DNA of 41,851 nt from assembly GCA_024694565.1 (NCBI GenBank), contig JAILJR010000223.1:1-41851 (forward strand). Reading direction: 5' to 3'. Below are positions 20,249 to 22,884 of the stretch, piece by piece (position 1 is the stretch's first letter; each line of letters opens with the position of its first letter). The position numbers and the translations under genes were made by a program. The notes under the pieces are model-generated. The model had not been told where the DNA came from. It did no database searches and worked only from the letters and a program-made list of their open reading frames with translations. Source of the DNA: Butyrivibrio sp. Its GTDB lineage: Bacteria > Bacillota > Clostridia > Lachnospirales > Lachnospiraceae.

Positions 20249-21529
20249 TCACTTGCCAAATGTAAGTGTCTGTGTTTCTGTCTGAGCCTGGACTTGTCCC
20301 TGGGTCTGCATCTGGGCTGCAACGCCCTGACCCTGGGTTGTAAGACCATCCTGTGCCATCATCGTCTTCATTACAGATATGTCGGAAGAGATATCCCATG
20401 CCATATCCTGGAACATGCTGTCAAGAAGATTCTTGAAGGCCTCATTGATGGTATCGATTGCTGTCTCTATCTCTCCCTTCGTCTGTCTAATATTATCAAG
20501 GTCAGGCTGGCTGTATAGCTCAACATATGCATTCAGCAGCTTCTTCGTCGTAGGAAGATAGTAGTCCATGAGCTTCTGCAGCTCATCTGCAGATGAGGGA
20601 TCCTTCTTTATCTGGGCAAAGATCCTGTTCATGATCTCCTCAAGTCTGTAGAGCTTATTGGAAAACTCTTCTGTGTCAGGAATGATATCATTGACATGTC
20701 TTACATACTCAATGTATTCATAACCCTCATCCAGAATTGCCTTTGCATTTTCCGGAAGCTTTTCATACTCAGGATCCTTGTTCTTTCCCTTTTTCTTTGA
20801 TGGCTGTTCATTGCTGTTAAGAGCAGCGACCTTCGCTTCTCTTGCCTCTCTCTCAATCCTGTCCTTCTCGGCTCCCATGTACTGCTCAACCACCCTGTCG
20901 GTCAGCATGCAGGTCGTCTCCGTATTGTCCAGTCTGGCCCTTGGCAGAAATCCCTGTTTTATCATCTCCTTGATATCTTTGAGAACTTCCTTATCTGATT
21001 TTGCACAGGCTCTTCCAAGGTCAGAGATTTTAAAGTACTCGGCCTCCTTTAAGATATTCCCATACTGATGATACTTCTTCGCCAGACCGAATTTCCTGTA
21101 TCCCTGTATTACAAGGAATGCACAGGCTGCTGTTATCAGTCCCGTTACAACTGTACCTGCAGTTACCCCGTCAATCAGCATGCCAAGAAAGGCCAGCAGG
21201 AAATTAATTCCAAGGAACCCTCCCACACACATTCGAACCACGCCGGAATACTTGCTTATGCTCTTCTGGAAGAAGGGATACACTCTCCCTCTGAGCGGAG
21301 TAGAATTATACCTGTTCTGGGTATTGTAGCTGCTTCTTTGACGGTTCTGATAATTGTCCTGGCCGGTTCTCTGACTTGAGTATGTGACATTCCTGTCAAT
21401 ATGAACAGACTTAATAGCCCTGCTCACTTCATCACTCAAATTACTGTAGTCATTTCTGTCAATGGCACTGGTCACACTATTTAAAATGTCATTTCCAACT
21501 TTTACAAAATCCTGTACGTCTCTTTGCAA
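20249..21529 (-). CDS. xpaC: XpaC-like (5-bromo-4-chloroindolyl phosphate hydrolysis) membrane protein
   Basis: The 426-residue protein has an N-terminal region with conserved FVKVGNDILNSVTSAID and a Ser/Asn/Gln-rich stretch. A double membrane segment follows (about 95-150; VRMCVGGFLGINFLLAFLGM and VVTGLITAACAFLVIQGY), then an HTH-like helical part (KISDLGRACAKSDKEVLKDI) and a long helical C-terminal domain (about 255-400). The last 30 residues are Gln-rich. The XpaC name comes from an indicator-dye phenotype, not a known reaction. Translation seems to start at TTG 21529 with AAGGA about 7 bases upstream. It is the first gene of the xpaC-telA pair. Confidence 0.85.
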   Translation of the reverse strand: MQRDVQDFVKVGNDILNSVTSAIDRNDYSNLSDEVSRAIKSVHIDRNVTYSSQRTGQDNYQNRQRSSYNTQNRYNSTPLRGRVYPFFQKSISKYSGVVRMCVGGFLGINFLLAFLGMLIDGVTAGTVVTGLITAACAFLVIQGYRKFGLAKKYHQYGNILKEAEYFKISDLGRACAKSDKEVLKDIKEMIKQGFLPRARLDNTETTCMLTDRVVEQYMGAEKDRIEREAREAKVAALNSNEQPSKKKGKNKDPEYEKLPENAKAILDEGYEYIEYVRHVNDIIPDTEEFSNKLYRLEEIMNRIFAQIKKDPSSADELQKLMDYYLPTTKKLLNAYVELYSQPDLDNIRQTKGEIETAIDTINEAFKNLLDSMFQDMAWDISSDISVMKTMMAQDGLTTQGQGVAAQMQTQGQVQAQTETQTLTFGK

Positions 21530-21575
21530 AATATTTTCCTTTCACATTCTGTTTACTCACCAAAATGCAACTATA

Positions 21576-21604
21576 ATTTTACAGTAAATTGCACCAAAAC
21601 ACAA
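21576..21604 (-). promoter_or_regulatory. Sigma-A-type promoter for xpaC-telA
   Basis: On the minus strand TTGTGT (21604-21599), a 17-base spacer and TAAAAT (21581-21576) lie about 47 bases upstream of the xpaC start. Confidence 0.5.
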
Positions 21605-21646
21605 TTGCTTAGGCTCATTCTGTTTGTCACCCTGTTACAATAAGAT

Positions 21647-21853
21647 GATGCCACCGACAAAAGCCTTTAGTGTATTGAGGGCATGAACATATTGTCCAAT
21701 CGCTTCGGGGACGCTCTCGCTCCGTTGTGCTTCGTAGCGGTACTAAGGCACTAAAATACAGTGCCTTAGTGCCGACGAGCACAAAGGCCCACTCAGTCGC
21801 TTGTGCAATATGTTCATGCCAGATTTACATTATGAGCTTTTGTCGGTGGCATC
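21647..21853. mobile_element. MITE-like inverted-repeat element (207 bp)
   Basis: Terminal inverted repeats GATGCCACCGACAAAAGC (21647-21664) and its exact complement (21836-21853) are 18 bp and perfect. The element is flanked directly by ATAAGAT on both sides (21640-21646 and 21854-21860), as expected for a 7-bp target duplication. Further inside are a perfect 15-bp stem (21680-21694 with 21806-21820), a TTGTGCTT-containing stem (21725-21732 with 21777-21784) and a central 10-bp hairpin (21743-21752 with 21760-21769). The whole element can fold into one long rod. No protein of convincing length is encoded, so it would need a transposase in trans. It lies between the divergent xpaC and araC promoters. 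Confidence 0.8.
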
Positions 21854-21898
21854 ATAAGATACAGTTCAGTGGTCAGCAAGGCAGGAAATTACATTTTC

Positions 21899-21928
21899 TT
21901 GAAATTATCTGTGTTTACATATTAAAAT
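21899..21928 (+). promoter_or_regulatory. Promoter for the AraC-family gene
   Basis: TTGAAA (21899-21904), an 18-base spacer and TAAAAT (21923-21928) precede the AraC-family start by about 40 bases. The right edge of the MITE-like element is 46 bases upstream of the -35. Confidence 0.5.
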
Positions 21929-21969
21929 ACAACTAAGAATTTAGTTTGTTTTCGTTTATGAGGTTCTTT

Positions 21970-22884
21970 ATGGAAAAAGCCTATAAGCTCTTATTTAATA
22001 CAGAGGAGAATGACGACCTTTACGTATATTGCTGCGGGATGTCCCAGACGCAGCCCGGACATTCTTTTGGACCTGCGCTCAAGCCACACTTTATGATACA
22101 TTACTGCCTAAGCGGCAAGGGTTCCTTTACCATGGGCGGAAAAAAATATCCGTTGAAGGAAGGCTATGGCTTCCTTATTGTTCCCGATGAGCTGGCATAT
22201 TATGTCTCAAACGAGAATGATCCCTGGACCTATGCATGGGTTGGTTTTGGGGGAAGGCGCGCAGCTGCCATAGTTTCCCAGCTCGGACTGTCACTTCATC
22301 AGCCGGTATTCAAGTGCAAGGCATCAGAGACCATATATGATCTTATCAAAGATATGATGGATCACAATACCTTCAGCGTCGAGGATGTCCTAAGGCGAAA
22401 CGGCCTGCTATCAATGTTTCTCTCTGTCATTGCCTCCGGCATCAGTGTGACTCAGAAAAGTGATTCTGGCAGCGACAACATCTATGTGACCAAGGCTCAG
22501 GCCTATGTCAGGAGCAATTACTGCAACCCCATTAAGGTCACCGACATAGCCGATTATGTCTGCATAAACAGAAGCTACCTCTACACACTCTTTGAAAAGA
22601 CACTTGGAATCTCACCGCAGCAATATCTTACAAGCTATAGGATAGCAAAGGCTGTGGAGCTTTTGCAGCTGACCCAGCTGTCGATTGAGGCTGTGGCAAT
22701 ATCCTGCGGTTATACAGATCCACTTGTCTTCTCAAAGGCCTTTAAGCAGGAAAAGAAATTGTCTCCGACAGCTTATCGCAAATCTCTCCCAAAAAGCGGA
22801 AGTGATGCTGACAGCAGAGAGCATCTAAGGCAAGTAGAAAAGCTCATAGAACAGCGACATCTTCAGTCAAATGATCCCAATTAA
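21970..22884 (+). CDS. AraC/XylS-family transcriptional regulator with cupin-like sensor
   Basis: The 304-residue regulator has an N-terminal sugar-sensing cupin-like domain (about 1-150; HFMIHYCLSGKGSFTMGGKK, EGYGFLIVPDELAYYVSN, WTYAWVGFGGRRA) and a C-terminal pair of HTH motifs (about 190-290; VTDIADYVCINRSYLYTLFE and LSIEAVAISCGYTDPLVFSK). The domain order is that of sugar-responsive AraC activators (MsmR/YtgR-like). The ATG at 21970 is chosen because GAGG lies 6 bases upstream; earlier TTG and ATG starts lack a site. It faces glgP convergently and shares no operon, so its targets are unknown; a carbohydrate locus is likely. Confidence 0.92.
   Translation: MEKAYKLLFNTEENDDLYVYCCGMSQTQPGHSFGPALKPHFMIHYCLSGKGSFTMGGKKYPLKEGYGFLIVPDELAYYVSNENDPWTYAWVGFGGRRAAAIVSQLGLSLHQPVFKCKASETIYDLIKDMMDHNTFSVEDVLRRNGLLSMFLSVIASGISVTQKSDSGSDNIYVTKAQAYVRSNYCNPIKVTDIADYVCINRSYLYTLFEKTLGISPQQYLTSYRIAKAVELLQLTQLSIEAVAISCGYTDPLVFSKAFKQEKKLSPTAYRKSLPKSGSDADSREHLRQVEKLIEQRHLQSNDPN

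Follow-up and report, generated by a model that had tools for sequence, protein, structure and literature searches.

The window analysed here is contig C64, a 41,851-nucleotide stretch of a Butyrivibrio sp. genome (3.47 Mb in 249 contigs, 82% complete). On it, a minus-strand gene for an XpaC-type protein (PF10112) and a plus-strand gene for an AraC regulator (PF00165, PF02311) diverge, and a palindromic element of 207 bp (21647-21853) lies between them, flanked on either side by ATAAGAT. This agrees with the first-pass annotation, which had placed the element between divergent xpaC and araC genes and whose 18-bp perfect terminal inverted repeat, bounded by ATAAGAT on both sides, matches in coordinates and in sequence. 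The parts of the element are as follows:

21640-21646, no strand: left target-site duplication ATAAGAT, 7 bp
21647-21664, plus strand: left terminal inverted repeat, perfect, 18 bp, containing the shared end motif CGACAAAAGC
21665-21687, no strand: left outer arm, an imperfect complement of 21813-21835
21688-21812, minus strand: conserved structured core, modelled as RNA, whose own ends make up the inner stretch of the outer stem
21709-21723, minus strand: small core hairpin with a GNRA tetraloop, here minus-strand GAGA at 21715-21718
21729-21780, minus strand: long core hairpin with a two-base bulge (mostly CU), a covarying upper stem, and the terminal loop GUNNUUU (plus-strand positions 21753-21759)
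21813-21835, no strand: right outer arm
21836-21853, minus strand: right terminal inverted repeat
21854-21860, no strand: right target-site duplication ATAAGAT

By a simple equal-base formula, the expected number of perfect 18-bp inverted repeats at such spacing is ~9e-5 per window, and that of such a repeat together with a 7-bp duplication is ~6e-9 per window. The arms at 21645-21702 and 21798-21855 are 79% complementary. When the stretch was folded as RNA, its energy was -119.1 kcal/mol compared to a shuffled mean of -59.2 kcal/mol (z -13.6), and none of 200 shuffles was as low. The foldability claimed earlier therefore stands, but the single rod with nested stems does not, since the minus strand is modelled as a two-hairpin core on one outer stem, with a GNRA loop in one of the hairpins. 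The claim that the element lacks coding capacity was confirmed, with the frames fully within it measuring just 23 and 24 aa and the longest overlapping frame (69 aa) extending beyond the element end. On the araC side, TTGAAA falls in a consensus promoter match at 21899-21928; there are 3 such matches compared to 1.7 expected. A 32-nt direct repeat, 75% identical (21550-21581 and 21912-21943), flanks the insertion in the xpaC-araC region and may represent operator sites.

When a 221-bp query was searched against its own genome, 48 rows were obtained at E <= 0.001 (40 candidates scored), and 42 of these, the window counted in, were places other than reverse-strand self-matches. Near-full-length copies lay at six of the 42 places (C64, C22, C13, C228, C8, and C77). 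A second copy type used as query gave 41 rows ranked ahead of the reverse-strand self-matches, while the covariance model described below had at least 44 matches in this genome, where scoring was limited to 44 candidates. Copies also sit at the starts or ends of several contigs, as collapsed repeats would. The expected many copies with varied flanks were thus found, at ~40 related places with duplications specific to each copy; a single copy in conserved surroundings, the finding that would have spoken for the opposite, is at odds with the 42 places and with the congener araC loci, which lack the element.

The end motif CGACAAAAGC occurred 158 times in the own genome compared to 11 times for the reversed control. 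A longer version, GCCCGACAAAAGC, occurred 93 times in this genome, and none of the other 78 genomes of the genus had it more than once, so that this end type is particular to the own genome. Three kinds of end are present, namely GAGTTGCCCGACAAAAGCTC, GATGTTGAGGTCAAAAGTC, and the window's GATGCCACCGACAAAAGC, and mixed pairs occur too (e.g. at L010).

At three own-genome loci (L114, L073, and L117), ends or elements of different types lie side by side. One 7-bp direct repeat is shared up to three times (ATAAAAT in L114 and ATTCTAA in L073), as if new insertions had adjoined old ones, and L117 contains a short tandem array of single ends. Single 20-bp ends of the GAGCTTTTGTCGGGCRACTC type lie between 7-8-bp direct repeats at L112, L114, and L098 of the own genome; these single ends could have been left by deletions between short TGAG repeats of the palindrome. 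Inverted pairs of RNA copies a few hundred bases apart were observed at L197, L201, L209, L354, and L396, with a small reading frame between the two copies in L197.

To pair the ends, we took the CAAAAG motif and set the boundary at a constant distance of 11 bases, where the flanks were then compared for a set of own-genome loci. Thirty-one two-ended elements were compared in this way, with three composites of two elements kept in the count. A direct repeat scoring >=4 was present at 18 of the 31 copies. At 15 it was perfect, measured >=7 bp, and had an offset of zero, compared to 0.38 copies expected to have one of >=7 bp when flanks of different copies were matched. The duplications (n = 18) measured 7 bp in nine copies, 8 bp in five, 6 bp in two, and 11 bp and 5 bp in one each, and the longer duplications mostly read AT...AT. 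By the same flank comparison, a direct repeat was absent in 13 of the 31 two-ended copies, which counts against the explanation that we favor below. The first-pass annotation had called a 7-bp duplication atypical, and the copies of this genome do mostly have 7 or 8 bp. However, repeats of 7-9 bp are recorded for QMITE2 of Coxiella (PMC10969869), so a 7-bp duplication is not unheard of.

Duplications also surround shorter derivatives. A 57-bp derivative is flanked by the duplication ATAGTTAT, and by eye we identified a 48-bp derivative with an ATCCTAT duplication, a 45-bp derivative with the duplication ATAATTAT, and 20-bp single ends flanked by ATAAAAT or ATAAATAT. The short derivatives may be deletions that followed insertion; since coreless short derivatives lie between duplications, the core is perhaps dispensable for movement, which also counts against the favored explanation.

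An araC match was found in 15 of the 40 relatives searched (identity 68-76%), and the core was absent from all 15 of these congener araC loci. xpaC could be aligned beside araC in 11 of the 15 loci, and the xpaC-araC gap measured 132-212 nt in 10 of these 11 congeners compared to 442-460 nt in the window (442-475 nt with all 11 counted), where the element and one duplication account for 214 nt; at L052 the gap was 663 nt and contained other extra DNA. Outside the insertion, blocks common to the congeners are TTTTACAGTAAA...CACAATTG on the xpaC side and TTGAAA on the araC side. In the ten congeners with a short gap, another 30-100 or so bases adjoining the element are missing as well. A precise empty ATAAGAT site was therefore not observed, and the proposed unoccupied site is upheld only as far as the absence of the element from the 15 loci. 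Taken together, the dispersed copies, the duplications lying exactly at the ends, and the absence from congener araC loci support the earlier identification of a non-autonomous transposon, and that the element is mobile, taken singly, is highly probable.

A full-length transposon with the same ends, which the first-pass annotation had proposed looking for, was not found among the candidates checked in the 82% complete assembly and for one transposase family, and the failure to find a transposase gene with these ends counts against the favored explanation. The end sites covered comprised all 93 exact occurrences of GCCCGACAAAAGC and 100 of the 158 of CGACAAAAGC. No transposase domain was detected within the end pairs at C142:11639-14152 (two frames, Pfam), in C18 (1.4 kb, main frame a GGDEF protein), in C107 (5.6 kb) and C153 (5.0 kb; main frames ferredoxin-type, AAA, DUF2201, and one unmatched), in C82 (3.1 kb, a 732-aa frame with a SPOR domain), or in contig C22 of genome G409 (4.2 kb, main frames of uridine-kinase type and two unmatched). 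Matches to DDE_Tnp_1 (PF01609) numbered six in the own genome, two in G020, and one in G446, while G409, G358, and G401 carry many copies of the element yet had no match to this family. None of the DDE_Tnp_1 genes in these six genomes was flanked by the element's ends; at one DDE_Tnp_1 locus (L293) the end motif occurred twice, on one side. On contig C70 of the own genome, a separate DDE_Tnp_1 frame (L288, 895-2210) lies between 18-bp inverted repeats TAGACAAGTTTCCTAACT, ~1.3 kb apart, whose ends are unrelated.

A covariance model, R1, was built on the minus strand of the element. It matched 53 of 79 genomes of the genus; at the order level, its matches fell in 63 of 392 genomes and covered 30 of the 173 genera sampled (the own genome is included in each of these counts), and at the phylum level 5 of 398 genomes matched. 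The scans used stricter filters that lose weak matches. Within the genus, matches per genome ranged from 0 to at least 44. All order-level matches fell within the window's own family except for one weak case (E 0.0026). In the phylum-level scan, genome G809 of another family had 4 matches (best E 3e-9), which share the stem motifs and likewise have GNRA loops; in the G809 copies (L397 and L400-L403), the upper part of the long hairpin is different, and the arms are long and perfect. Named genomes gave at least 80 matches, and the 80 listed were all labelled Lachnospiraceae, Butyrivibrio, Agathobacter, Acetatifactor, Lachnoclostridium, or Eubacterium, except for two labelled 'uncultured bacterium'. 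For two genomes of the genus (G069 and G065), the 400 bases on either side of a copy are identical to Butyrivibrio sp. M55 and INlla18. Exact pattern matches in viral contigs numbered zero, and plasmids and phages gave no match to one copy used as query.

Matches across species mostly covered query positions ~40-175, with few extending to 19-217, and outside the core the arms differ in sequence between lineages yet still pair. In two other genera (G409 and G358), the ends are of the type AGG(T/C)(A/G)ATTGCGAAACTC, with ATTGCGAAACTC occurring 46 times in G409 and 19 times in G358, compared to 0 and 1 for the control; shorter derivatives are found there as well, and the duplications measure ~9-14 bp by eye. 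G020 had 40 matches, and the nine cores fetched from it are identical or nearly so and have yet other ends. Thus, one core occurs within different terminal repeats in different lineages.

In a MAFFT alignment of 29 copies that was not fitted to structure, the minus strand had 36 pairs, 25 of them with compensated double changes, while the plus strand had 39 pairs, 29 of them with double changes. Since the consensus energy is lower for the plus strand (-32.0 kcal/mol) than for the minus strand (-27.9 kcal/mol), this step does not by itself choose a strand. Among 71 distinct rows fitted to the model, 96.1% of cells pair, compared to 68.8% when shuffled and 28-47% for slid structures, and 642 cells have double changes compared to 159 when shuffled, with 32 of the 36 pairs having at least one. 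Such an alignment is biased toward the model, and the evidence from the loops therefore carries more weight. A four-base loop closes the small hairpin in 149 of 153 distinct sequences, and it is a GNRA loop, a known RNA loop class, in 147 of the 149 (GAAA 55, GAGA 54, GCAA 14, GCGA 9, GGGA 8, GGAA 5, and GUAA 2). The two exceptions, GGUA (L006) and AAAA (L131), are both own-genome copies. Of the four loops of other length, two read GNRA on a stem one pair longer (CGCGAG), and a third may do so.

The GNRA loops point to the window's minus strand as the RNA strand. G-U pairs exceed A-C juxtapositions on the modelled strand by 109 to 66 when the loop-closing pair is left out and by 105 to 42 when the bulge-adjacent pair is left out too (counts from two alignments that share four sequences). 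The two-base bulge is CU in 124 of the 140 cases scored by regular expression among the 153 sequences. Counting against the minus-strand call are the plus-strand energy and one core position at which C lies opposite A in 21 of 153 sequences, which would be G-U on the plus strand. Kinship among the sequences means that these pairing and loop counts are not probabilities. Hammerhead-like CUGA/GAA letters of the own-genome copies were not conserved in other genera (by eye). Nevertheless, as far as sequence comparison goes, the inner 125 bp appears to be a conserved structure that is best read as minus-strand RNA, and a conserved fold with RNA-like features, taken singly, is very likely. The first-pass annotation had held that conserved stem covariation at this single locus would point to a structured RNA instead of a transposon; covariation is indeed present, but it spans many dispersed loci rather than one and so adds to the transposon reading.

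The inverted copy pairs at L197, L201, L209, and L354 and the asymmetric conserved bulge would also suit movement as a hairpin of single-stranded DNA by an enzyme of the HUH type (REP/RAYT-like) that recognises such hairpins, and GAAA-type loops are stable in DNA too. However, HUH-type, REP/RAYT, or IS200/IS605 enzymes are not known to make a target duplication on insertion, whereas target duplications are present here, and the excess of G-U over A-C also speaks against it. We therefore give this explanation almost no credence.

Gene context was analysed for 128 copies, which remained from the 161 hits in two model alignments after 4 duplicates and 29 hits with less than 700 bases of flank had been removed, using simple frames of >=300 nt as genes. 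Relative to both neighbors, the RNA was co-oriented in 49 cases and opposed in 43, and it lay between convergent genes in 22 and between divergent genes in 14. Just 5 of the 128 copies overlapped a long frame, and the most widespread neighbor cluster, an ABC transporter family, accounted for 13 of 134 loci. With no orientation bias and no dominant neighbor, the RNA is not a leader or trailer that accompanies one particular gene in a fixed orientation.

Copies at fixed sites nevertheless keep their pairing as they change. L185 and L186 have 14 differences over 154 bases: five pairs changed on both sides and still paired, one pair that went from unpaired to paired, and two single changes. L186 and L187 are one compensated pair apart. 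In the long hairpin of L176 and L181, two neighboring pairs pass through G-U states, with G-C becoming G-U beside U-G becoming C-G. L191, L193, and L195 differ at one or two core positions, none of them in the outer part of the core stem. Such compensated change at fixed sites can reflect selection at the locus or palindrome correction, and the retention of pairing in orthologous copies, which could mean host function or such correction, counts against the explanation that we favor.

The first of these options would make the core a host regulatory or structural RNA that reached its many sites by hitch-hiking on a MITE and now persists because it benefits the host at each of them. The compensated changes at fixed sites (six pairs across L185, L186, and L187, and also those in L176/L181) argue partly for host-site selection, and the rarity of long-frame overlap fits as well. 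The lack of strand preference towards neighboring genes, the small size of even the largest neighbor cluster, the wide spread in match number among genomes of the genus (from 0 to at least 44), and the lack of a terminator-like site at 21480-22020 speak against it, and we consider it rather unlikely. Taken together, random orientation, copy-number swings, and absence from the sites of relatives suggest that selection acts more on the element than on host sites.

Palindromes can self-correct by template switching, so that arms may covary without selection. An ordinary MITE could on this basis owe its fold to being a palindrome and the similarity of its core between species to descent or horizontal transfer, and the inverted ends, the duplications, and the many copies are what such an element would have. 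The orthologous L185-L187 locus, where six pairs each changed in both partners at once, fits this account too. However, palindrome correction leaves unexplained why GNRA recurs in 147 of 149 loops although N takes any of the four bases and R either purine, as well as the one-sided two-base bulge, and matches in 30 genera likewise weigh against this account, which we judge to be quite improbable. A core that looks like a folded RNA and recurs in many related bacteria makes the element more than an ordinary transposon relic.

Could the RNA itself have been copied into DNA by a reverse transcriptase acting in trans, like a eukaryotic SINE? The conserved RNA-like structure, the random orientation to genes, and the variable direct repeats (5-11 bp in the own genome and ~9-14 bp by eye in two other genera) would be consistent with such a retroelement. 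In contrast, the inverted ends are precise, the >=7-bp duplications have zero offset, no tail was seen, and the neighbor survey revealed no recurrent gene such as a reverse transcriptase, making this explanation very improbable.

The explanation that we regard as probable, with moderate confidence, is a non-autonomous (MITE-type) transposon family built around a conserved RNA module that serves the element and moved by a transposase in trans. The transposase would recognise the lineage-specific ends and insert the element into AT-rich DNA between genes, where it would make a staggered cut of 7-8 bp. The core would be transcribed, and its retention would be due to a benefit of the RNA to the element itself, which might lie in bringing in or controlling the mobility machinery. 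Shifting end recognition combined with a need for a closed outer stem would leave the arms free to change yet complementary. That the RNA is specifically transposition-associated, in that it binds, guides, or regulates the transposase or is an intermediate, with lineages swapping ends and transposases while keeping the core, is a doubtful proposition at present.

If that proposition holds, these elements would form a class of bacterial MITEs that depends on RNA and occurs throughout a major family of gut and rumen bacteria. The element also opens to experiment the question of whether a bacterial MITE can rely on the fold of its own RNA. The structured RNA candidate occurs in ~1/6 of the sampled genera of the order, at up to at least 44 copies per genome, lacks an Rfam 15 match in the loci searched, and can be studied in cultured Butyrivibrio. 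The covariance model is now available for annotating intergenic regions of gut and rumen Lachnospiraceae.

None of the 4227 models of Rfam 15 matched the core at E up to 1, either in positions 21000-22500 of the window or in 15 other copy-bearing loci. Some copies had hits to group II intron, tRNA, or glutamine-riboswitch models in their vicinity, but these did not cover the core. In L172 (1721-1800, minus strand), a group II intron end (RF00029) lies near the 5' side of the RNA copy; some group II introns use hairpins as targets. Searches of the open PMC literature, which does not include most subscription papers, brought up nothing recognised as this element, passages of PMC8632094, PMC10969869, PMC2864571, and PMC2267715 among them.

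Being short, non-coding, and dispersed, with terminal inverted repeats and copy-specific duplications, the element fits the usual description of a MITE in these respects. QMITE2 of Coxiella burnetii, as described in PMC10969869, has 23-29-bp inverted ends and a stable predicted fold alongside its 7-9-bp repeats, and on that description it resembles the Butyrivibrio element in size class, inverted ends, duplication length, and lack of coding capacity. Unlike QMITE2, the Butyrivibrio element has a conserved, covarying, GNRA-looped core that is found across many genera, and no parent insertion sequence was found for it among the candidates checked.

ERIC, bcr1 of the Bacillus cereus group, and BOX of pneumococcus are dispersed palindromic repeats for which roles at the RNA level have been proposed. 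By their general descriptions, these repeats, which belong to other taxa, are like the element described here in being dispersed and palindromic and in being proposed to act as RNA.
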